64,000 nucleotides of DNA from Cellulomonas sp. WB94 (GTDB lineage Bacteria; Actinomycetota; Actinomycetes; Actinomycetales; Cellulomonadaceae), in assembly GCF_003115775.1 (NCBI RefSeq), contig NZ_QEES01000002.1, positions 1,178,001-1,242,000 of the forward strand. The letters are read 5' to 3'. The notes below the pieces were generated by a model. That model had not been told where the DNA came from and searched no databases. It saw nothing but the letters and a program-made list of their open reading frames with translations. Position numbers and translations under genes: made by a program. This document shows, one piece after another, positions 51,541-64,000 of this stretch (position 1 is its first letter; every line of letters begins with the position of its first letter).

Positions 51541-52050
51541 CTACCGGGCGCTCCCGAGGTATGCGGTGAGGCCCTCGACGACGAGCGCGTGGTCGTCCTG
51601 CTGGGGCAGCCCCGAGATGCCCACGACCCCCACGAGCTGGCCGTTGACCCGCAGCGGGAAGCACCCGCCGTGCGCCGCGTACTGCTCGGGGTCCAGCTCC
51701 GCCCGGGTCTCGAACGTGCCGCCCTCGACGCGGTACCGCGTGCCGACCGCGAACGAGGAGTGCCCGTAGTGGCGGACCACCGCGGCCTTCCGGCTGAGCC
51801 ACCAGTCGTTGTTCGGCGAGGTGCCCGGCATCGCCTGCTGGAAGACGGTGTGCGGACCCGTGGGCGTGTCGATCTCGACGCGGACGACGACCGGCAGGCC
51901 GCCCTGCTCGGCGAGCCCGGCGAGGGTCGCACCGAGGCGTGCCGCGTCGTCGTAGTCGAGGTGCGGCAGGACGAGCCGGTCCTCCTGGTCGAGCAGCTCG
52001 GCGAGGAGCGCGGGGTCGGAGAACGGGATGGCGGGAGCGGCGTCGGTCAC
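51541..52050 (-). CDS. UPF0303/HbpS-like heme-degrading-domain protein
   Basis: 169 residues, start GTG 52048-52050, in a GTGA overlap with the clpB stop. Family features: [50 protein letters not shown] and [34 protein letters not shown], matching the UPF0303/GlcG-HbpS fold. Members bind haem or related small molecules. Co-translated with clpB; whether it matters in heat stress is unknown. Confidence 0.85.
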
Positions 52051-54680
52051 GCGACCGACGCTACCGGACGTGCCACCACCGCGAGCGTGAGGCTCCCCGA
52101 GCCGTCGGCCGCCCGGTCGACCCGGACCGTGTCACCGTCACGGGCCTCTCCGCCGAGCAGCATCCGGGCCAGCCGGTCGCCGATCTCCCGCTGCACGAGC
52201 CGGCGCAGCGGCCGGGCACCGTACGCCGGGTCGAAGCCCTCGATCGCGAGCCACTCGCGCGCCGCCGGGGTCACATCGAGCGTGAGCCTGCGGTCCGTCA
52301 GGCGGTCGGCCAGGGCCTTGACCTGGATCTCGACGATCCGGCTGAGCTCGTCGAGGGACAGCGGGTCGAAGAGGACGACGTCGTCGAGGCGGTTGAGGAA
52401 CTCGGGCTTGAACGCGGCGTGGACGGCGGCCATGACGGCCTCGCGCTTGGCGGCGTCGTCGAGCATCGGGTCCACGAGGAACTGCGAGCCGAGGTTCGAC
52501 GTGAGCACGAGGATCACGTTGCGGAAGTCGACCGTGCGGCCCTGGCCGTCGGTGAGGCGGCCGTCGTCGAGCACCTGCAGCAGGATGTCGAACACCTCGG
52601 GGTGCGCCTTCTCGACCTCGTCGAACAGGACGACCGAGTACGGCCGACGCCGCACGGCCTCGGTCAGCTGACCGCCCTCCTCGTACCCCACGTACCCGGG
52701 GGGCGCACCGACGAGGCGCGCGACCGAGTGCTTCTCGGAGTACTCGGACATGTCGATCCGGACGATCGCGCGCTCGTCGTCGAACAGGAAGTCCGCGAGC
52801 GCCTTCGCGAGCTCGGTCTTGCCGACGCCGGTCGGGCCGAGGAACAGGAACGAGCCCGTCGGCCGGTCGGGGTCGGAGATGCCGGCCCGGGCGCGACGGA
52901 CCGCGTCGGACACCGACGCGACGGCCGCGCGCTGACCGATGAGCCGCTGGCCGAGCACGTCCTCCATGCGCAGCAGCTTGGCGCTCTCGCCCTCGAGCAG
53001 GCGCCCCGCGGGGATGCCGGTCCAGGCGGACACGACCTCGGCGATCTCATCGGGCCCGACCTTCTCGGCGATCATCGGCTCGGGGACCGGGCCGATGGCG
53101 TCCTCGACGCCCGCCCGCTGCTCGCGCGCCTCGGCCTCGGCGATCTCGCGCTCGACCGCGGGGATCTCCCCGTAGAGCAGTCGGGAGGCGGTCGCGAGGT
53201 CGCCGTCGCGCTGCGCCTTGTCCGACTCGATGCGCAGCTCGTCGAGCTTGGCGCGCAGGTCACCGACGCGGTTGTGGCCCGCACGCTCGTTCTCCCACCG
53301 TGCGGTCAGCGAGGCGAGCTCCTCCGAACGGTCCGCGAGGTCCGCGCGCAGCTTCCCGAGCCGTTCCCGGGACGCGTCGTCGTCGGCATTCTCGAGCGCG
53401 AGCTCTTCCATCTTCAGGCGGTCGACCGCGCGGCGGAGCTGGTCGATCTCGACCGGCGACGAGTCGAGCTCCATGCGCAGCCGGCTCGCGGCCTCGTCGA
53501 TGAGGTCGATGGCCTTGTCGGGCAGCTGACGGCCGGAGATGTAGCGGTCCGACAGGCTCGCGGCGGCGACGAGCGCGGCGTCGGAGATCGCGACCTTGTG
53601 GTGCGCCTCGTAGCGCTCCTTGAGGCCGCGCAAGATCGCGATGGTGTCCTCGACGCTCGGCTCGCCCACGAAGACCTGCTGGAACCGGCGCTCGAGCGCG
53701 GGGTCCTTCTCGATGTGCTGACGGAACTCGTCGAGCGTCGTCGCGCCCACGAGGCGCAGCTCGCCGCGCGCGAGCATCGGCTTGAGCATGTTGCCGGCGT
53801 CCATCGAGCCCTCGGCCGCGCCGGCCCCGACGACCGTGTGCAGCTCGTCGATGAACGTGACGATCTCGCCGTCGGACGACTTGATCTCCTCGAGGACGGC
53901 CTTGAGCCGCTCCTCGAACTCGCCGCGGTACTTGGCGCCCGCGACCATGGCTGCGAGGTCGAGCGAGACGAGCCGCTTGCCGCGCAGCGACTCGGGCACG
54001 TCACCCGCGACGATGCGCTGCGCGAGCCCCTCGACGACGGCGGTCTTGCCGACGCCGGGCTCGCCGATGAGGACGGGGTTGTTCTTGGTGCGCCGCGACA
54101 GGACCTGCACGACGCGGCGGATCTCGGCGTCGCGGCCGATGACGGGGTCGAGCTTGCCGTCCCGGGCCGCGGCCGTGAGGTCGACGCCGTACTGCTCGAG
54201 AGCCTTGTACGTGCCCTCGGGGTTGGGGCTCGTGACCTTGCCCGACCCGCGCACGGTCGGCAGCACGGCCAGGAGGGCGTCACGGGACGCGCCATGGGTG
54301 CGCAGCGCGTCGGCCACGCCCGAGCGGCCCGCGGCGACGCCGAGCAGCAGGTGCTCGGTCGAGACGTAGTCGTCGCCCAGCGCGCGCGCCTCGGAGGACG
54401 CGGCCTCGATCGCGGTCGAGGTCGCGCGCGAGGCGGTCGGCTGCGCGACGGCGGACCCGCTCGCTGCGGGCAGCGCCACCAGGGCGGCCCGGACCGCTCG
54501 GCCCAGGGCACCCCGGTCGGCGCCGACCGCGTCGAGCAGCCCGTTGGCGACCCCACCCTCCTGCGCGAGCAGCGCGTTCAGCAGGTGCGCGGGCTCGAGC
54601 TGGGGGTTGCCCGCGGCGGACGCCTGCTGGATGGCATCACCCAGGGCCTCCTGCGACTTGGTGGTGAGCTTGGCGTCCAC
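52047..54680 (-). CDS. clpB: ATP-dependent disaggregase ClpB
   Basis: Hsp100 chaperone that, with DnaK, dissolves protein aggregates. 877 residues, the family norm. N-domain, NBD1 (Walker [16 protein letters not shown], Walker [13 protein letters not shown]), a long middle coiled-coil, NBD2 ([39 protein letters not shown]) and the C-terminal [19 protein letters not shown] are all in place. Start GTG 54678-54680 ([13 protein letters not shown]). A HAIR element lies 72-92 bp upstream, so HspR control is expected. UPF0303 and Gfo/Idh genes follow. Confidence 0.97.
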
Positions 54681-55096: not shown

Positions 55097-56083
55097 ATGG
55101 CCGACGACGACGTCACCGCAGCTGTCACCTCACCAGTCTCCGAAGCAGTCCCCGACGTGCTCCGCGACGGGTGGACCGCCCGCACCCTGCCGCTGCGGCC
55201 CGACGCGCAGGGAGAACCTGTCGCGACCCTCGTCCACCTCGAACCCACCGGACCGGCGCCGCGGCGCGCCGTCCTGTACGTGCACGGGTTCGTCGACTAC
55301 TTCTTCCAGGAGCACGTCGGCGACGCCTTCGCCGCACGCGGGTACGACTTCTTCGCGCTCGACCTGCGGGACTACGGGCGCTCGATCCGTCCAGGACGCG
55401 AGCCCAACTTCGTGACCGACCTCGCCGCATACCGCGAGGAGATCGACGCCGCCGTCCGGCTGCTGCGGGCCGACCACGACCAGCTCGTGGTCCTCGGGCA
55501 CTCGATGGGCGGGCTGGTCACGTCGCTGTGGGCCGACGCGCGCCGCGGAGCCGGGGTCGTCGACGCGCTCGTGCTCAACAGCCCGTGGCTGGACCTGCGC
55601 GGGTCGTGGGTCGAGCGGGTGCCCGTGACGTGGCTCGTCGACATGCTCGGCCCGCTCGTCCCCCGGCTGAAGGTCGGTGCGCTCGGGCAGCACTACGGCG
55701 CCGCGCTGCACTCGGGGACCGGTGGGGAGTGGGACTACGACCTCGCCTGGAAGCCGCTGCTGGGCTTCCCGGTCCGCGCCGGGTGGCTGCGCACGATCCG
55801 CCGCGGGCACGCGCGGGTCGCCCGCGGGCTGGCGATCGACTGCCCTGTCCTCGTGCTGTCGTCGGAGGCCTCGGGTCCCGACGACCGGTGGCACGACGAG
55901 CTCGTCACGACCGACAGCGTCCTCGACGTCGAGCACATCGCCGCGCGCGCCCCGCTGCTCGGCCCCGACGTGACGTACGTCCAGGTCACCGGCGGAGCGC
56001 ACGACCTCGCGCTGTCCCCCGCGCCCGCCCGGGACCGCTACCTCGACGAGGTGCTCGGCTGGCTCGAGGCGCGGCTCGGCTGA
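55097..56083 (+). CDS. Alpha/beta hydrolase (serine aminopeptidase/monoacylglycerol lipase type)
   Basis: 328 residues from ATG 55097 (MADDDVTAAVTSPVSEAVPDVL). Oxyanion loop: VLYVHGFVDYFFQEHVGDAFA. Nucleophile elbow: LVVLGHSMGGLVTSLW. A catalytic Asp is likely in the segment around VLSSEASGPDDRWHDEL and the His in VTGGAHDLALS. The pattern LDLRDYGRSIRPGREPNFVTDL resembles the S33/lysophospholipase group. No signal peptide. Substrate unknown, perhaps monoacylglycerol or an ester. It faces the large tail-like operon tail to tail, 15 bp away. Confidence 0.88.
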   Translation: MADDDVTAAVTSPVSEAVPDVLRDGWTARTLPLRPDAQGEPVATLVHLEPTGPAPRRAVLYVHGFVDYFFQEHVGDAFAARGYDFFALDLRDYGRSIRPGREPNFVTDLAAYREEIDAAVRLLRADHDQLVVLGHSMGGLVTSLWADARRGAGVVDALVLNSPWLDLRGSWVERVPVTWLVDMLGPLVPRLKVGALGQHYGAALHSGTGGEWDYDLAWKPLLGFPVRAGWLRTIRRGHARVARGLAIDCPVLVLSSEASGPDDRWHDELVTTDSVLDVEHIAARAPLLGPDVTYVQVTGGAHDLALSPAPARDRYLDEVLGWLEARLG

Positions 56084-56098: not shown

Positions 56099-59000
56099 CT
56101 ACAGCCCGACCACGACCCGCTCGCCGCGCGTCCTGACCAGCTCCGCCGCCGACGCGATGATCTTCGCCGCGAGCTTCGTCGAGACCCCGGGCAGCGCTGC
56201 CACGAGGGCTGCGTCCGCCCGGGCCAGCGCGGTGATGTCACCGACCCCCGCGGCGCGCAGCTGGGCGGCCCGCACCTGACCGACGAACGCGATGTCGGTG
56301 ACCGGGGCGTCGACCGTCATCCGGCTGGCCAGGGCCGGCGCCCCGCGCACCGGGACGGCGAGCACCCGGTCGACAGCGCGGAACTGCGGCAGCGACACGG
56401 TCTGCGCCCGGCGCAGCGGGACACCGCCGAGGCGCACGCGCGCGGCGCCGCACGTGGGGCACGGCGTGACGGTGGCCGCCCGACCGGCCGCGGTCACCGC
56501 GGTCGTGCCGTGCGTCGCCGGTCCGTGCTGCCCGCACCCCTGGCAGTAGCAGTCGTCGCCGTCCTCGCTCGTCGGGGTCACCGGGCACAGGCCGCCGGGC
56601 GGGACCGGGACCGGCGCCGGGACCCCGCGGTCGAACGTCACCGACACGTCCGTCAGGCTCAGGTCTCCGGGCGCCTCGGACGTGAAGTAGAGCCCCACGT
56701 CGGTCGGCTCCCCGATCTCCAGGGTCAGCTCCGTGAGGTGCACGACGGCGCCGGGCGGCAGGACGACCCGCAGCTGCGCCTCGACGGCCCCGGCCGGGAC
56801 CACGCCCGACGCCGCGCGCGCGTCGAGGTCGAGGACGTCGAGCGGGAGCCGCATCGGGTCGCGGACCGACAGCCCGGTCTCGTCCCCGAACGTGAGCTCG
56901 ACGCCGGCGCCGGGCTCACCGCTCGCGGCGGCCGTCACGACCAGGTCGAACCGGTCCCCCGCGACGACCCCCACGATCTGGCTGACGTCGGAGTCCACGG
57001 CTCCGCCGTTCGACAGCGTGACCCCGTCGTCGGCGCGCGCCACGGTCGTCGACGGGGCGGCCGGCTGCCACGTCGAGGTCGCCGCGTCGGCCGAGCCGCT
57101 GAGCGTCACGTGGTCGACGACCATCCGGCCCTCCGGCGTGAAGAGCTGCACCTCGGCCTGAGTCGCCCCGGCGGGCGCCACGAGGACGACCTCCTGGCGC
57201 GGGACGCGGTCGAGCGAGGTGCGCTTCTCGAGGTCCAGCACCGGGACGGGGACCCGGTCGGTGCGCTCGGTCGAGCACGCGTCGCCGCGCCAGGTCACCT
57301 GCGCCCGGGCGCCGTCCACGAATGCCACCCCGTCGAAGCCGAACCGGTACCTCGCGCCGCCCACGACGGGGACGACCTGCGAGATCGACGACCGGGTGGT
57401 CGCCGCGACCTGGCCCTGCCGCAGGGTCACGACCTCCTTGCCGGGCGCAGCGTCGTGCAGCCTGACGCTCTGCTTGAGCGTCGAGCTCCCGAGGAGCGCG
57501 AGCACCTCGCCCGTCGCCGGCAGGCTGACGGGTCGCACCGAGCCTGCCGTGAGCTCCCACTCGGCCGGCAACGCGTCGCCGAGCGTCAGCAGCTCGACCG
57601 AGGGGTCGTCGAAGCGCGCGACCGTCGCATGGGTCCCCGTCGGGCTGACCGCGACGGCGAGCGACCCCTCGCCGAACGGCACCGGGATGTCGGGGTCGGG
57701 GAGCATCCGCCGGGCGCTCACGTCCAGGACGGCCACCGTGCCCTCACGCGCGATGACGGCGAGCGCGCCCTGCGGGTCGAGCGCCCAGGCTCGGGCCGGG
57801 TCACCGGCGGCGAGCCGGACCTCGGTGAGCGTCGACAGGTCGGTCGCGCGCAGGTAGCGGACGCGGTCCTCGGCGAGCACCAGCACGAGGTCCGCGGAAG
57901 GGCATGCGGCGTCGACCGCGTCGGCCACGGCGTCGACCCCGATCCGGTCACCGGCGGCGAGCGCCGCCCGGTCGGCGTAGGTCCAGACCCGTTCCGCCGC
58001 CTGCCCGGTCCCGGTCGCGGTCCCCACGACCGCCGGTGTCCCCGTGAGCAGCACGACGCGGCCGTCGTCGCCGCCCGCGAGCGCGAGCGGGAGGCCAGGC
58101 ACCTCGTCGTGCGGCTGGGTGTCCCAGTCGAGCGGGGATCCCCCCGCAGCCGCGGTCACCGCCTCCCACTCGACGTGGCGCAGGACCGTGGTGGTGCCGG
58201 TGGACTCGTCGGACACCCCGCCCGCGAGGTAGACCCCCCGACCGTCCGGCGCAGGCACGATCGCCATGGTCGGCTCGGGCACGGGGACGGACGCACCGGT
58301 GGCCCGGCCCGTCGCGACGTCGACGAGCTGCAGCCACGACCCGTCGGCGCTGTCCCCGGCCGCGACCTCCGGCGTCGTCCCCCAGACGAGGGTCGCGACC
58401 AGGAGCCTGCGGCCCGTGGGGTCGAGCGCCAGCGCGGTCGGCTCGGACATTCCGGCGGGGGCGGCGATGTCCACGTCGAGGTCGCTCTGGCCCGAGAGCA
58501 CGTCGAAGACGACGAGCCGGGTGCTGGTCCGACTGTTCCCGCCGTCGGGGCCGACGGTCGTCCGGCTGCCGACCGTGAGCGCGCGGGCGCCGTCCGCCCC
58601 GAACACGCACGCGCGGGCGTCGTACCCGTCCGACGGGTCGGGCGTGAGGTCGCGCGACCGCCGGACGGTGGTCCCCACGCGGTACCAGCTCGCGAAGTCG
58701 CCGTTGGCCACATGCTCCCCGCCACCGGCTGCCGCCCCGGCACCCGCAGCCGCGAGCGCCGTGTTGACGGCGCCGGCGACCTCGGGGAAGTCGAGGCCGA
58801 AGTCGACGGCCCCCGAGGCCGCGAACCTCTGCACCGACACCCCGACCTCGGTGCCGCCTGCGCCGACGCGGAGCTCGAGCGGGAGGTGGAAGCCCGTGGT
58901 GGCGTGCCGCAGCCGGAGCGCCGCCGCGAGCCCTGCGCCCGTCGGGGTCGCCGGGGTCGCGGGCGCGGCACCCGACGGCGCCGCACCCGACGACGCCGCG

Positions 59001-60283
59001 CGCCACGACAGCCCACCGTCGCGCGTCCCCTGCAGGGCAGGCCCCGGACGGTCGCCCGTCTCGCGCGCGGACCCGGCCGCAGCGCTCCACGCCGCCGACC
59101 CGGTGCGCGTCTGGACGACGAGCCACACCCGCCGGCCCGCAGCCACCTCGACCTCGCGCGGCAGCGCCACGCTGACCCACGTGGGCGAGCCGGCGTCGTC
59201 CCGCGTGATCGTGAGGTCCGCCGGGTGGGGCAGCAGCGACGCGCTCCCGGGCTTGCCGTCCAGGTCGACGACGAGGTCGACCGCGAGCGTCACGGCGGCC
59301 GTCACCGCGGTGAGCAGGAGGTCCACGCTCGTGGCGACCACGGTGCCCGCGGGGACGAGCGCCTGCGCGAGCGACTGGCCGGCAGCGACGACGACCAGCT
59401 CGGTCGCCGTCGCCGCGGTGAGGGCGCCGTGCACGACGCGGGTCGCGGCGAACGCACCCTGCACGCGTCCGGTCGTCGCACCCTCGACCGCGACCATGCC
59501 GGGCGGCACGCTGACCGCCAACATCCCTCCGCCAGCGACGGGCGCACCGCCGAACCGGTAGGCCGCCTGCACGGTCCGCACCCCGTCGGGTGTCGCGGAC
59601 GCCGCCAGGGTGAGGTCGATCGCGAGGTCCAGGTCGATCCGCGCGATCGAGTCGGAGTGAAGCACGAACGGCACGACCCAGCAGCCGTTCTCGACGTCGA
59701 GCTCGGGGAGCATGCCCTGCAGCACGTCCGAGAAGTCGGGCGTCGTCACCGGTTCGACGAGGTCGCCGCGGTGGGTGAAGAACACCGGGCCGCCCTCGAC
59801 CGCGACGGTGACGCCGCTCGGCGGCGACGAGACCCGCAGGACCGACACGTCGGCACCTGCCTTGGGCATCCGCAGCCCCGTGACGGTGAGCCCCGGGAGG
59901 TCTGCCGCGTTCGTCAGGGTCAGGGGCGCACCCCCGCTGAAGCCGCCGAGGGTGTCGACGCCGAGGAACCCCCCGCCGATGTCGACGAGCAGCGGTACGC
60001 CGACGAGACCCGACCCGGTCAGCGCGGCGAGCCGGCGCCGGGCATGCAGGTCGATCTCGACCGCCCCCGTCGTCACGACCTTCGTCGCTCCGCGGTCCCC
60101 CGCACCCGAGCCCGCCGGGAAGGTCAGTGTCTCCAGGAACCGCCCCGTCGGGTCGGTGCTCACAGGCGTCAGGGTCAGGACGGCACGCGTCACGACCGCG
60201 CCGACCGGCAGCCGACGCAGCACGAGCCGCTGGTCGCGCTCGAACGGGAGCCGCCCGCCCGCATGCCTCGCGCGGACCTGCAT
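56099..60283 (-). CDS. Giant protein with propeller-like repeats, zinc-type CxxC motifs and C-terminal helix-hairpin-helix, unknown
   Basis: 1394 residues, ATG 60281-60283 after GAGGAGGAGG. No signal peptide. Residues 1-~450 are a beta-rich Ala/Val region. Around 540-1000 there are WD/NHL-like strands with motifs such as TALALDPTGRRLLVATLVWG, TMAIVPAPDGRGVYLAGG and ALDPQGALAVIAREGTVAVLD, suggesting a beta-propeller. Beta-sandwich stretches follow. Near 1260-1330 come cysteines (CPVT, CYCQGCGQHG, CPTCGAARVRL), a rubredoxin-like zinc knot. The last ~50 residues, GQVRAAQLRAAGVGDITALARADAALVAALPGVSTKLAAKIIASAAELV, are a helix-hairpin-helix. Third visible gene of an operon with tail-like neighbours. 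No family recognised. Confidence 0.7.
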   Translation of the reverse strand: MQVRARHAGGRLPFERDQRLVLRRLPVGAVVTRAVLTLTPVSTDPTGRFLETLTFPAGSGAGDRGATKVVTTGAVEIDLHARRRLAALTGSGLVGVPLLVDIGGGFLGVDTLGGFSGGAPLTLTNAADLPGLTVTGLRMPKAGADVSVLRVSSPPSGVTVAVEGGPVFFTHRGDLVEPVTTPDFSDVLQGMLPELDVENGCWVVPFVLHSDSIARIDLDLAIDLTLAASATPDGVRTVQAAYRFGGAPVAGGGMLAVSVPPGMVAVEGATTGRVQGAFAATRVVHGALTAATATELVVVAAGQSLAQALVPAGTVVATSVDLLLTAVTAAVTLAVDLVVDLDGKPGSASLLPHPADLTITRDDAGSPTWVSVALPREVEVAAGRRVWLVVQTRTGSAAWSAAAGSARETGDRPGPALQGTRDGGLSWRAASSGAAPSGAAPATPATPTGAGLAAALRLRHATTGFHLPLELRVGAGGTEVGVSVQRFAASGAVDFGLDFPEVAGAVNTALAAAGAGAAAGGGEHVANGDFASWYRVGTTVRRSRDLTPDPSDGYDARACVFGADGARALTVGSRTTVGPDGGNSRTSTRLVVFDVLSGQSDLDVDIAAPAGMSEPTALALDPTGRRLLVATLVWGTTPEVAAGDSADGSWLQLVDVATGRATGASVPVPEPTMAIVPAPDGRGVYLAGGVSDESTGTTTVLRHVEWEAVTAAAGGSPLDWDTQPHDEVPGLPLALAGGDDGRVVLLTGTPAVVGTATGTGQAAERVWTYADRAALAAGDRIGVDAVADAVDAACPSADLVLVLAEDRVRYLRATDLSTLTEVRLAAGDPARAWALDPQGALAVIAREGTVAVLDVSARRMLPDPDIPVPFGEGSLAVAVSPTGTHATVARFDDPSVELLTLGDALPAEWELTAGSVRPVSLPATGEVLALLGSSTLKQSVRLHDAAPGKEVVTLRQGQVAATTRSSISQVVPVVGGARYRFGFDGVAFVDGARAQVTWRGDACSTERTDRVPVPVLDLEKRTSLDRVPRQEVVLVAPAGATQAEVQLFTPEGRMVVDHVTLSGSADAATSTWQPAAPSTTVARADDGVTLSNGGAVDSDVSQIVGVVAGDRFDLVVTAAASGEPGAGVELTFGDETGLSVRDPMRLPLDVLDLDARAASGVVPAGAVEAQLRVVLPPGAVVHLTELTLEIGEPTDVGLYFTSEAPGDLSLTDVSVTFDRGVPAPVPVPPGGLCPVTPTSEDGDDCYCQGCGQHGPATHGTTAVTAAGRAATVTPCPTCGAARVRLGGVPLRRAQTVSLPQFRAVDRVLAVPVRGAPALASRMTVDAPVTDIAFVGQVRAAQLRAAGVGDITALARADAALVAALPGVSTKLAAKIIASAAELVRTRGERVVVGL

Positions 60284-60334
60284 CGTGCGCCTCCTCCTCG
60301 TCGCGTCCTGGGCCCGCTCCTGGTTGCTGGCGGG

Positions 60335-61336
60335 TCAGACCTTGAGCAGCACCATGAGCTTGAGCTCGCGCTCGAACCGCCCCTGGATGTCGTCTCCGTC
60401 GGTGGACAGGTTGTCCGGGTCGATGACCGGGCTGCTCGGGTCGTTGATGTAGGCCCGGGCCCGGGCGTCGTCGCCGGGGTCGTGCGGCGTCGGCGGCCTG
60501 AACCACACGGCCGTGCGGTTGTTGTCGAGGTGCTGGACGAACACGTTCGCCGGCTGCGGGAACCGGGCAGCAGGCGTCGTGGTGTCCGTGAAGTTCACCG
60601 TCTTGCGCGGCTGGACGATGAAGAGCATGTCGTTCCAGTCGCCCTGGTCCTTGAGCCGCTTGACGCTGTGCTGCTCGGAGCAGCACCGCTCGAACCACGG
60701 CGAGTGGCAGTACTGGTCGTCGTTGAACCGGTCGTTCGGCGCCTTGAAGAACGCCTTCCAGAACTCGGTCTCGAGGTCGTCGAGGTTCGTCTTGTCGGTG
60801 TACGGCACCTTGTAGCGCGTGAGCATGTCCGCGAACGGGATCCCGATCTCGGGGCCGTCGGGCGGCTGGATGTCGATCGAGCGGCGGCCACCGCTCGCGG
60901 TCGGCACCCGCACGCGGCGCTCCTCGCGGTTGACGAGGTAGAACGTCGCGAAGGACGCGCGCATCTCCTCGTCCTCGTGGCACGCGACCTCGAAGTACTC
61001 GAGCTTGTAGAGGTCGACGAGCGGCATGGTGCCCAGGCCGTGCTCGATGATCGTGGGCTCGTCGGCCTTGAGCACCTTGAAGAGCTGCTGGTAGCCGGTG
61101 CGCCCGCGCACGTCGTCGAGGACGCGCTTGGTGACCTCGTCGGTGAGCGCGGCGAGGTCCTTGCCCTCGAGGTGGGCCGCGTCGTCGGCGTTCGCGACGT
61201 GGGTCACGGACGCGGCGGCAGCCTGGGAGCTCGCCTCGATGTCGGCGTGGATCTTGCGCTGCATCTCGTTCCACGCGTCGGCGGTGAGGATGTCGCCGGG
61301 CGCCTGCTCGACGTACGGCACGGTGGTGTCGGTCAT
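60335..61336 (-). CDS. Tail-fibre-like protein of a phage-tail-type cluster, unknown
   Basis: 333 residues, ATG 61334-61336 in an ATGA overlap with the upstream gene. The N-terminus APGDILTADAWNEMQRKIHAD matches a pattern common in tail-fibre or baseplate-adjacent proteins of phages and contractile systems. ADDAAHLEGKDLAALTDEVTKRVL is another fibre-like segment. The rest is a charged domain with clustered cysteines around YCHSPWFERCCSEQHS and a Pro-rich APRFPQPANVFVQHL-type end. No signal peptide. Role in receptor binding or assembly is inferred only from these patterns and context. Confidence 0.6.
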   Translation of the reverse strand: MTDTTVPYVEQAPGDILTADAWNEMQRKIHADIEASSQAAAASVTHVANADDAAHLEGKDLAALTDEVTKRVLDDVRGRTGYQQLFKVLKADEPTIIEHGLGTMPLVDLYKLEYFEVACHEDEEMRASFATFYLVNREERRVRVPTASGGRRSIDIQPPDGPEIGIPFADMLTRYKVPYTDKTNLDDLETEFWKAFFKAPNDRFNDDQYCHSPWFERCCSEQHSVKRLKDQGDWNDMLFIVQPRKTVNFTDTTTPAARFPQPANVFVQHLDNNRTAVWFRPPTPHDPGDDARARAYINDPSSPVIDPDNLSTDGDDIQGRFERELKLMVLLKV

Positions 61337-64000
61337 GGTGTTCCTTCCTCGTCCGGGCGTGGCCCGTCCTGGTGGGTGCGGTGCTCGGTGGCGGCCGGGG
61401 TGGCCCGGTCCCTCGTGACGATGGCGCGGACGCCGGCCGCCTTGGCCGCGGCGACCCCGACCGGGCCGGGCTTCAGCAGGTGCTCCGCGAGGGTCGGCAG
61501 GTCCGGCCCGAGGACGGCGGCGCGGGCGTTCTCGAACCGCGCGCCCGGCATGGAGACCTCGACGTCGTAGATCTCCGGTCCGACGAGCCGCGCGGACACC
61601 CGGATGTCGTTGCCGTACGTGCCGGGCTCGGCGGCCGCGATCTCGACGAACCGTGGCGCGAGACCCGGACCCGTGACGTAGAGGCGGGCGACGTCGTGCG
61701 TCCGGCCGAGCGTCAGCGGGGTCGGGTCGCGGAAGGGCAGCGTCACCGCGGTCCACCCGAGCGGGACGACGGGCACGTCCTTCGCCTCGACGAGCCGCGA
61801 CTCGAGGTTGATCCGCCGGACGAGGCGGTCGGCGTCGAGCTCGGGCTCAGTGACGACGCCCGCGACGAGCTCGGGCTCGGCCGCACCGAACCGGGCCTCG
61901 TCGAAGACGCGCCCGAACCGGGGGTCCAGGTCGCGCGGCAGGTTGACCTCGAAGGTCCCCGCAGCGTGCGAGTCCCACGCGACCCGCACGTGCGCGGTCG
62001 CCGACCGGGTCGCCGACGACCCGAGCACCGCCGGCACCTCGGTCGGCGAGAACCGGCTCACGTCGAAGACCGCCTCCTCGGTGCACGGCTCCCCCGCGAA
62101 CCGGTCCGTGTCGACGACCGCGGCGTCGAACCGCGCGGCACGGCACTCGGTCCAGCTCCAGCGGTTGCGGCCCCGGCGCACGGTGAGCGCGGCGCGCGCG
62201 CCCGGCGCTGGATGCTCGGGCACGACGTGGACGAGCTCGGGGGCAAGCACGCGCGTCTCTCCGCGCTCTGCCACGGTCGCGGTGACGCCACCGGCGTCGG
62301 TCGGTTCGAGGACGAGCCGCCCCCCGGCCCCGATCGCGGCTGCGACGCGGACCGACCAACCGCCCGCCGGGTCGCCGAGCCGCGGCCACGCGATCCCGCG
62401 CGCGGTGTCGACCTCGATCGTGGCCGGGACATCCGCGGACCCGGTGCTGGTGAACGTCAGCACGCTGCCGTGGGCCACGTCGGCCTCGACGTCGGCCCGG
62501 ACCGGCGGGTACTCGACGACCTCGAGGTGGCGCACCGGCACGACCTCGACGCGACTGGCCGGTCCGGCGGTCGAAGACACCAGCCGGAGCCGTTCCGACG
62601 GGCCGGCCTGGGCCACGCCGGGCAGCACCGCGTCGATCGCGGCGACGATCTCGGCGAGCAGGGTCGCCGACGGCCGGATGCCCGCGAGGTCCGCGTCGAC
62701 CGGCTCACCGCCGTCGACCGCGAGGCGCAGCACCGACCGTTCTGACAGGTCGACGGGTGCGAGCAGGTCGACGGTGCCGTCGAGCATCGCGGGCTCGGGG
62801 TCGGTGCCCGCCGCGGACGCACCCACGGCGCCCAGCAGGAACGGCGCCGCGTCGCCCGCGCCGGTGCGCAGGACCTCGACGCGGCTCGACGGGCCGGTCG
62901 TCGGCGAGGTCACGTGGAGGCCCAGGCCGCCCGGCAGCACGAGGGTGCCGGACTCGGCGGTCGTGGCGGCCCGGATCGCCGCGGCGACCTGGACGGCGCT
63001 CACCGTGCGGCGGTCCTCCGCGGGGACCGCCGCCGTGAGGTCGACCGCGACGGGGGCACCGCCGTCGATCGCGAGGCGCAGCACGTGCGCGGTGCGCAGG
63101 TCGGCGCCCGCGGTCAGGTCGACGGTTCCCGCGACGCGCGCGGCCGCTGCGGCCTGCCCGACGTAGGTGCGCGGAGCCGGGAACCCGAGCACGGCAGGCG
63201 TCACGTCGGTGCCCGCGGTCGGGACCTCGAGGACGAGCCGGCTCGCGGTCGCGGTCGCGGGCGGGACGAGCAGCAGGTGCGTGCCGTCGTGCGCGGCGAC
63301 CTGGGCCGCGAGCGCGAGGTTGACCTGCGCGACGATCTGGCTGAGCTGGCGCGTCGCGGTCGTGGAGCCGTCACCGACCGGGACGTCGACCGGCGGGGCG
63401 TCACCGACCCCGATCCGCAGCGCGGCGTCGGCGGGCAGCTCGACCCCGGCGGACAGGTCGACGGTCCCGGCGAGGTGCACGGAGACCGCTCCCTGCCCCC
63501 GCGCGAGCACCGGGGGAACCCCGAGGACGCTGTCGAGCGCGTCGAGCGTGCGCGGCGGCTCGACCAGGATCCGCGACGCCGCCCCGGGCTCGGGGTCGGT
63601 CAGCACGAGGGTGCGACCGTCGGTCAGGGCGATCGGGCCGGGCGCGGTCGGGTGCTGCGCGGCATACGCGGTGGTGATCGCGTGGACGATCTCGGCCGCC
63701 GTGGTGGCCCGCGGGCGGGGGCCGGCGCAGTCGATCGGGACGGGCGTGCGGTCGCCGACCGTGAGGAGCAGGTGCCTGTCGACACTGAGGTCGACACCGC
63801 CCGAGAGGTCGTGGGGGCCGGTGAGGCGCGCGACGGTCGCGGCCTTGCCCGTCGCGGTGCGGGCCGTGAAGGCGAGCACCGTCGTCGCGGCGTCGTCCGT
63901 GACGCGGGCACGGGTGACGAATCGCCGGCGCAGGGTGTCGCTCAGCGGCTGCAGGTCGATCGAGCCGGCGGTGCCGGCGCTCGCCGACACGAGCTGGAGG
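61333..64000 (-). CDS. Modular beta-rich protein with tail-sheath-like C-terminal motif (5' end cut by window edge)
   Basis: At least 889 residues; the frame stays open to the right edge, with LQL before the first GTG at 63990, so the true start is outside. Four consecutive ~90-residue modules begin DLSGGVDLSVDRHLLLTV, TVDLSAGVELPADAALRIGV, TVDLTAGADLRTAHVLRLAI and TVDLLAPVDLSERSVLRLAV; each ends in a grLvLts..tGp.SrveV strand, like IN-type modules in flagellin/hook and tail proteins. The C-terminal RFVEIAAAEPGTYGNDIRV and YDVEVSMPGARFENA resemble the phage tail-sheath motif with P-G-x-[WY]-G-N. Probable structural component of a tail-like particle. Confidence 0.65.
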   Translation of the reverse strand, partial: LQLVSASAGTAGSIDLQPLSDTLRRRFVTRARVTDDAATTVLAFTARTATGKAATVARLTGPHDLSGGVDLSVDRHLLLTVGDRTPVPIDCAGPRPRATTAAEIVHAITTAYAAQHPTAPGPIALTDGRTLVLTDPEPGAASRILVEPPRTLDALDSVLGVPPVLARGQGAVSVHLAGTVDLSAGVELPADAALRIGVGDAPPVDVPVGDGSTTATRQLSQIVAQVNLALAAQVAAHDGTHLLLVPPATATASRLVLEVPTAGTDVTPAVLGFPAPRTYVGQAAAAARVAGTVDLTAGADLRTAHVLRLAIDGGAPVAVDLTAAVPAEDRRTVSAVQVAAAIRAATTAESGTLVLPGGLGLHVTSPTTGPSSRVEVLRTGAGDAAPFLLGAVGASAAGTDPEPAMLDGTVDLLAPVDLSERSVLRLAVDGGEPVDADLAGIRPSATLLAEIVAAIDAVLPGVAQAGPSERLRLVSSTAGPASRVEVVPVRHLEVVEYPPVRADVEADVAHGSVLTFTSTGSADVPATIEVDTARGIAWPRLGDPAGGWSVRVAAAIGAGGRLVLEPTDAGGVTATVAERGETRVLAPELVHVVPEHPAPGARAALTVRRGRNRWSWTECRAARFDAAVVDTDRFAGEPCTEEAVFDVSRFSPTEVPAVLGSSATRSATAHVRVAWDSHAAGTFEVNLPRDLDPRFGRVFDEARFGAAEPELVAGVVTEPELDADRLVRRINLESRLVEAKDVPVVPLGWTAVTLPFRDPTPLTLGRTHDVARLYVTGPGLAPRFVEIAAAEPGTYGNDIRVSARLVGPEIYDVEVSMPGARFENARAAVLGPDLPTLAEHLLKPGPVGVAAAKAAGVRAIVTRDRATPAATEHRTHQDGPRPDEEGTP

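Follow-up and report, generated by a model that had tools for sequence, protein, structure and literature searches.

Phage-tail-like PLTS clusters are reported always to hold an AAA+ ATPase (Sarris et al., PMC4122934), the BTAD regulator has been described as a shell domain of eCIS loci (PMC8213781), and the contractile injection systems (CIS) of Streptomyces and Chloroflexota have been assigned to eCIS lineage IId (PMC12998442, PMC13277306). Surveys of contractile systems are described as requiring eCIS-specific genes, the complete set of eCIS baseplate genes or fibre anchors already known, and as classing loci without an ATPase as phages or tailocins (PMC8213781, PMC12210884, PMC12923769). 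One metagenome survey made the complete eCIS baseplate set its first requirement and afterwards discarded loci that had Cis13 and Cis14 but lacked Cis15 and Cis6 (PMC12210884), and a fibre catalogue placed weight on DUF4157, Pvc16_N, CIS_tube and DUF6519 and left out any locus lacking eBAP fibres (PMC12923769). The same catalogue reports an eBAP5/DUF6519 subtype in Actinobacteria and depicts a single eBAP4 fibre of Cellulomonas origin, which we could not link to the cluster described here.

The window analysed here is a 64,000-nt stretch of the Cellulomonas sp. WB94 genome (G000:C2:1178001-1242000). We read the sequence rightwards past its edge, calling genes by codon usage, and found a single cluster of 18 minus-strand genes (g01 to g18) at 56099-82783, in window numbering continued beyond 64000. 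Three giant genes in the window are the distal end of this 18-gene operon, which probably encodes a headless contractile phage-tail-like particle, known here from its genes alone.

Gene content and order of the cluster

The initial annotation had described three codirectional genes, and these lie on the minus strand, as do all cluster features given below, at 56099-60283 (g01), 60335-61336 (g02) and 61333-65703 (g03, which runs past the right edge and occupies 61333-64000 in the window). The described overlap of 4 bp (61333-61336) and gap of 51 bp (60284-60334) are confirmed to the base, and the strong ribosome-binding site is present as GAGGAGGAGG, shortly before the ATG at 60283. Neighbouring genes from g17 through to g01 either overlap, by 4-8 bp, or leave 1-94 bp between them, and therefore probably form one operon. 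As had been expected, this operon goes on rightwards: J, spike, sheath, hub and gp25-type genes were found there, with PF04865, PF04717, PF04984 and PF17482 above Pfam cut-offs, and the neighbours are thus tail genes rather than unrelated ones. The remark that no tube or baseplate gene is visible holds within the window, but genes for baseplate, spike, hub and sheath follow at 1.7-16 kb past its edge. G+C content is 0.747 in the cluster vs 0.719 in its flanks.

The cluster runs in the order terminator slot, sheath, tube, chaperone, tape slot, adaptor, hub, spike, PAAR slot, gp25, J, I and fibre slots, with the extra genes g12, g11, g10 and g09 between tape slot and hub. The operon had been judged unlike those of phages, a view we do not uphold: its genes follow the arrangement of a myovirus tail such as that of HJTV-3. 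At the upstream end stands g18 (81908-82783, 291 aa), which encodes a SARP/BTAD-type regulator (PF03704, E 5e-22). Tail functions are recognised by sequence, in tail order, for the sheath g16 (78684-80333, 549 aa; PF04984 and PF17482 above cut-offs), the hub g08 (69103-70185, 360 aa; Pfam below cut-off, good PHROGs match), the spike g07 (68300-69106, 268 aa; PF04717 above cut-off), the gp25/GP46-type g05 (67300-67806, 168 aa; Pfam below cut-off, good PHROGs match), the J-type baseplate protein g04 (65696-67303, 535 aa; PF04865 above cut-off) and the I-type g03; PHROGs searches covered all cluster proteins other than g16 and g18.

Position or a weak match suggests the remaining tail components: the tube g15 (78114-78674, 186 aa; by position), the tail chaperone g14 (77621-78067, 148 aa; match below cut-off), the terminator g17 (80380-81648, 422 aa; no family matched, and no match among solved structures at E 1), a tape measure in either g13 (76269-77624, 451 aa as the longest frame, with an unsure start and poor conservation) or g11 (75242-75658, 138 aa, helical-looking by eye; tape-measure match at E 0.0098) and a PAAR-like tip in g06 (67901-68221, 106 aa; by position only). 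The names terminator and tape measure are tentative, because they were taken from the HJTV-3-like tail order and not from sequence alone. For g15, no family was matched and nothing fell below E 0.59 among solved structures; its profile reached E 0.2 against the classical eCIS tube and, at low probability, E 0.0048 against the other cluster type, neither of which amounts to firm tube homology.

Two of the extra genes are related to each other. The adaptor g10 (71189-75211, 1340 aa) has a DNA_circ_N-like start, residues 1-125 of which match g12 (75725-76267, 180 aa; DNA_circ_N, barely above cut-off) at 43% identity, and it further carries an OmpA-type domain below cut-off (23.8 of 27.2 bits in Pfam; NCBIfam Pal_lipo, E 1e-11, also below) and a PG_binding_1 domain above cut-off (E 1.3e-8). 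The OmpA-type motif TD...LS.RRA is kept in 6/6 copies, and endolysin matches to g10 are confined to its PG-binding part. LysM domains in other baseplates have a purely structural role. The OmpA-type domain of the T6SS protein TagL, on the other hand, is described as a wall anchor (PMC8253398), and for g10 a part that might hold peptidoglycan or contact the wall and one that might be a purely structural clamp are equally open. The neighbouring g09 (70188-71192, 334 aa) matched no family.

The three distal genes

The 1456-aa product of g03 is an I-type baseplate protein with a repeat arm, residues 3-130 of which match the baseplate family phrog_1160 (E 3.9e-5), and its orthologues in the four syntenic genomes described below are 63-69% identical. 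The beta modules noticed earlier correspond to a tandem array of eight repeats, each about 110 aa long, found with a profile derived from the protein itself both in g03 and in the four other complete copies tested; repeats 8 to 5 and part of 4 lie in the window (62437-64000). Compared with solved structures, the repeats gave no match at E 1, and the eight-repeat arm is a candidate for a new recognition part. The PGTYGN motif (61609-61626), read earlier as sheath-type, is present and is the sole PGT[YWF][GA]N in the six frames of the window, but g03 is not a sheath, the true sheath being g16. As proof of a sheath the motif was set aside: its alignment to the PGTWAN stretch of g16 spans only 17 columns at a weak E of 0.04.

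Its neighbour g02 encodes 333 aa, a candidate fibre or adaptor with orthologues of 66-70% identity in 4/4 syntenic genomes and a further one in Kribbella. The fibre-type start that had been recorded, PGDILTADAWNEMQ, is at the N-terminus, where P, G, D, T, A, W and N of the PGDILTADAWN element (61268-61300) are invariant in 6/6 copies, and W-N elements occur in genes downstream of the I-type gene in several diverged clusters. The structure model of g02 is unusable (mean pLDDT 43), and its search of solved structures returned ferritin only, at E 0.48. A match to g02 in another genome (G147; 33% over 88 aa, E 7e-4) was dropped, the neighbourhood being, by eye, without tail genes.

The final gene of the operon, g01, is an open frame of 1394 aa with a ribosome-binding site, whose product is a candidate recognition or terminal protein with orthologues of 51-55% identity in 4/4 syntenic genomes. 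It contains a WD40-like beta-propeller (57572-58672, about residues 538-904), a cysteine cluster CYCQGC...CPTC (56450-56551, residues 1245-1278) and a helix-hairpin-helix (HhH) domain (56144-56302, residues 1328-1380; PF14520 above cut-off, E 2.5e-7). The cysteines, CxCxxC followed by CxxC, are kept in 5/5 copies and would be expected to bind zinc, in line with the helix-hairpin-helix and zinc-knot giant protein of the initial annotation. Only the propeller is usable in the structure model (mean pLDDT 57.5). Searched with Foldseek against viral structures, this model gave 50 listed matches, mostly propeller-containing or of very low TM-score, with no clear tail-protein relative among them; the VIA list for the model covers model residues 236-605 only. 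The g01 profile matched only the HhH parts of ribosomal L32e among solved structures. Together with its propeller, g01 is a candidate for another new recognition part.

Two expectations about these proteins came out in part. A tail-like fold was not obtained for the three of them, as the g02 model is too poor and the g01 propeller is non-diagnostic. That they are non-secreted agrees with the lack of any N-terminal hydrophobic peak above 1.52, but a buried membrane helix is possible, as hydropathy further inside reaches 2.01 in g01 and 1.79 in g03; by this crude test (19-residue Kyte-Doolittle means), peaks above 1.6 occur in g01, g03, g10 and g17, which may therefore touch a membrane. The underlying proposal of a tail-like or contractile assembly is nevertheless supported.

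Distribution and genomic setting

All 18 genes are syntenic in four other genomes, with g13 present as fragments only. One of these (G063) belongs to a second genus of Cellulomonadaceae and three (G208, G325, G412) to another family, Occultella-type, in which the regulator gene g18 is inverted. Because the three window proteins are syntenic in these four genomes, at 51-70% identity, the observation made in the window is more than chance. Across the syntenic copies g01, g09 and g13 vary most, and sheath, tube and chaperone least. A stretch of Kribbella catacumbae holds 16/16 expected cluster genes, and Frankia CiP1 (G660) holds 14 whole or cut orthologues and a g13 fragment, where g01 and g02 would fall past the contig end. 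In Frankia CiP1 another gene stands in the g09 slot (L055:6035-6547), its 170-aa product being unrelated to g09 and matching HEAT only weakly, so this slot is variable. The tail operon is conserved and apparently complete.

Wider searches indicate that the cluster is sporadic. With g02 as query, three of 150 family genomes matched, one of them spuriously, leaving two real cases including our own, and the single match among 396 phylum genomes was our own. Sheath searches matched 12 of 297 order genomes (four strongly, including our own), and a hub profile matched 16 of 394 class genomes (our own and one Frankia strongly, three moderately, eleven weakly). A single spike pattern, which as one short pattern undercounts loci, recovered 20 loci from 87 stretches in the species-genome collection, or 19 after we dropped a Burkholderiales locus (L080) with only a weak spike-profile match and, by eye, a T6SS-like setting; L061, L063, L064, L072, L074 and L077 come from the same genomes as G412, G325, G660, G590, G636 and G161 and are not additional. 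These loci include Occultella, Kribbella, Frankia, Mycolicibacterium agri, Neoroseomonas lacus, Devosia insulae and Sorangium cellulosum, and extend to Gemmatimonadota, Acidobacteriota, a Desulfuromonadales MAG and three archaeal MAGs. On the three archaeal contigs, whose MAG binning could err, sheath, adaptor, hub, spike, gp25-type and J-type genes stand in the same order. The sheath of one diverged cluster (L074) matched nothing among solved structures at E 0.01.

Several relatives carry additional genes in or near the cluster. An M23 peptidase with PG_binding_1 adjoins the regulator gene in G208 (L032:17924-18727), similarly by eye in G412 and G325, and is possibly a release or wall-opening enzyme. 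Neoroseomonas encodes, two genes before its sheath, a candidate cargo of 893 aa (L070:1787-4468) whose match to zinc-dependent phospholipase C falls narrowly short of the cut-off. Near the cluster end, collagen-repeat proteins matching phage tail-fibre families or the collagen family are encoded in Neoroseomonas (L070:17874-19319) and Sorangium (L075:17821-19218).

In its own genome the cluster is flanked by a hydrolase gene (55157-56083) and a glycosyltransferase-like gene (at 83471). We read six other genomes of the genus at the hydrolase: in four (G016, G038, G069, G081) hydrolase and glycosyltransferase are adjacent without the cluster, in G055 a single 208-aa frame stands between them, and G091 is uninformative, the glycosyltransferase being absent from its 12-kb contig. 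Cluster proteins had no match in the hydrolase stretches of these six genomes, nor had g02 in the six whole genomes. The cluster thus reads as a 27-kb island with empty sites in relatives. No integrase was seen by eye in the flanks and no direct repeat longer than 11 bp at the edges, so no integration site is recognised; the intergenic flanks are too diverged for placing the island junction to the base. Near the cluster and on the same strand stands a gene at 52047-54680, which we take from its sequence to encode a ClpB-like AAA+ chaperone. We rejected it as a missing ATPase: it lies within one gene of the hydrolase in five cluster-free genomes (G016, G038, G055, G069, G081), and since the adjacency is also kept at cluster-free sites, it looks old and accidental.

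Proposed function and relation to known contractile systems

Our best reading is a domesticated, ATPase-free contractile tail that would puncture cell envelopes. Its particles would assemble in the cytoplasm, the eight stacked g03 modules could form an arm on the baseplate, g02 would attach through its PGD..TA..WN start, and g01 with its propeller would form the recognition end. The g10 adaptor, with its OmpA-like and PG_binding_1 parts, would hold peptidoglycan or clamp the baseplate, and contact would trigger contraction of the sheath, driving tube and spike through an envelope, with no AAA+ ATPase of the cluster's own involved, though one encoded elsewhere in the genome might be. Puncture of, or injection into, bacterial cells is the most likely use, which we propose tentatively; fibre, effector and lysis genes were not recognised among the 18 proteins. 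Next comes a role inside the producer, perhaps in its development or in stress-linked cell death, by analogy with the CIS that act in the cytoplasm of Streptomyces. The lack of a secretion-signal peak and of a recognised lysis gene is in keeping with such a role, as is the actinobacterial precedent (PMC13277306), but contact with an envelope is suggested by the size of the distal proteins and by the domains of peptidoglycan-binding type, and the presence is sporadic (two real cases in 150 family genomes), and we consider it rather unlikely.

It is plausible that this cluster type is undescribed. A literature search, largely limited to openly accessible text, brought up no paper that we recognised as describing an ATPase-free lineage with such a gene set, which falls short of establishing absence from print. 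The cluster would probably fail the published survey filters, and since several actinobacterial genera carry it and diverged forms are found in further phyla and in archaeal MAGs, contractile devices may be more widespread than counted. A bolder proposal, which we hold to be doubtful, is that it belongs to an overlooked ATPase-free branch of contractile machines common to bacteria and archaea and separate from eCIS, T6SS and known phages, the actinobacterial type being wall-directed, with an adaptor that gained peptidoglycan-binding domains and a baseplate tethered to, or firing at, the cell wall of Gram-positives.

Compared with classical eCIS and PLTS (Afp, PVC, Streptomyces SLP/CISSc), the cluster has the eCIS core set of sheath, hub, spike, gp25 and J, and BTAD regulators are found there too. 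It would be an ordinary eCIS if ATPase and terminator had diverged past recognition or were encoded elsewhere, as its identical functional slots, its regulator (PMC8213781) and a best solved sheath match in a haloarchaeal CIS (E 1.5e-8) might suggest. We regard this as improbable, because Pvc16_N, T4_gp19 and an AAA+ ATPase were not found for the cluster. Family searches recognised no AAA family among the 18 proteins, which also lack any Walker A motif, and of eight whole genomes searched, our own, G063 and G660 (87% complete) have neither Pvc16_N (DUF4255) nor T4_gp19. The other five (G208, G325, G412, G161, G636) have both outside the cluster, and in G208 and G636 they belong to a separate cluster with a Walker-motif protein, its own sheath and two T4_gp19 tubes. 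These classical-eCIS-like clusters are L108 and L109 (G208:C1:5585405-5601530) and L110 and L111 (G636:C1, about 2986500-3005700). Some genomes thus carry both the cluster type and a classical eCIS, so the two presumably do different jobs.

Sheaths of the cluster type are only 20-23% identical to those of the classical type (22% to the classical sheath of G208). Among the 18 proteins we found no Pfam match to DUF4157 (HExxH occurs only by chance, in the regulator), no DUF6519 and, in family searches, no T6SS membrane-complex family. Walker-A-like strings in relatives were confined to L080, L081 and, once, L074 (apparently by chance) among 15 loci scanned (14 of the 20 loci plus L081; plus strand, frames of at least 150 aa, flanks of up to 10 kb). 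The solved structure that best matches the g16 sheath, 9ezm, is taken as the T6SS-like CIS of the haloarchaeon Halogeometricum borinquense because the paper on that system carries the code (PMC11566945). That CIS thus provides the nearest solved sheath; it differs in being described as having an ATPase and a candidate membrane anchor (PMC11566945).

In a tree of J proteins, classical eCIS stand apart with 100/100 support, and a halovirus joins the cluster types in a part of the tree that is unresolved; by this tree the baseplate is more phage-like than eCIS-like. Since 9/19 inner branches are without full support, and the alignment has a long phage row and five rows of unusual composition, we used only the separation of classical eCIS and single clades. 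Phage-collection matches are numerous for J (162 records, near 33% over 40% among the matches listed) and few for sheath (four, weak), spike (five) and g10 (two, to its OmpA or PG-binding part only), and no close phage relative was found; g02 matched neither the phage nor the plasmid collection, and J had 12 partial matches in the latter. The viral_contigs collection gave one weak relative, an IMG/VR contig (L081) encoding distant sheath, adaptor, hub, spike and J relatives, which is a possible viral cousin. The cluster might instead be what is left of a decayed prophage, or the tail portion of a phage, whether active or satellite. This would account for the phage-type tail order and for L081 but is highly improbable, as no head, packaging or integration gene is recognised, the tail genes are intact and syntenic across genera, the empty sites fit a cluster-sized island and the phage matches are distant only.

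With R-type tailocins the cluster would share a headless contractile tail, a phage-type gene set and the lack of an ATPase, given as defining features (PMC12210884). Contractile tail genes are present and no capsid, packaging/terminase or integrase gene was recognised among the 18 proteins (flanking genes were judged by eye). It differs from tailocins in its SARP/BTAD regulator and in having no recognised fibre family or lysis cassette; neither a holin nor an endolysin was recognised among the 18 proteins. The myophage tail module of HJTV-3 (Haloferacalesvirus) belongs, unlike the cluster, with head genes and is only remotely similar (J about 33% over 40%), but in its annotated record it has the same gene order and the same protein types.
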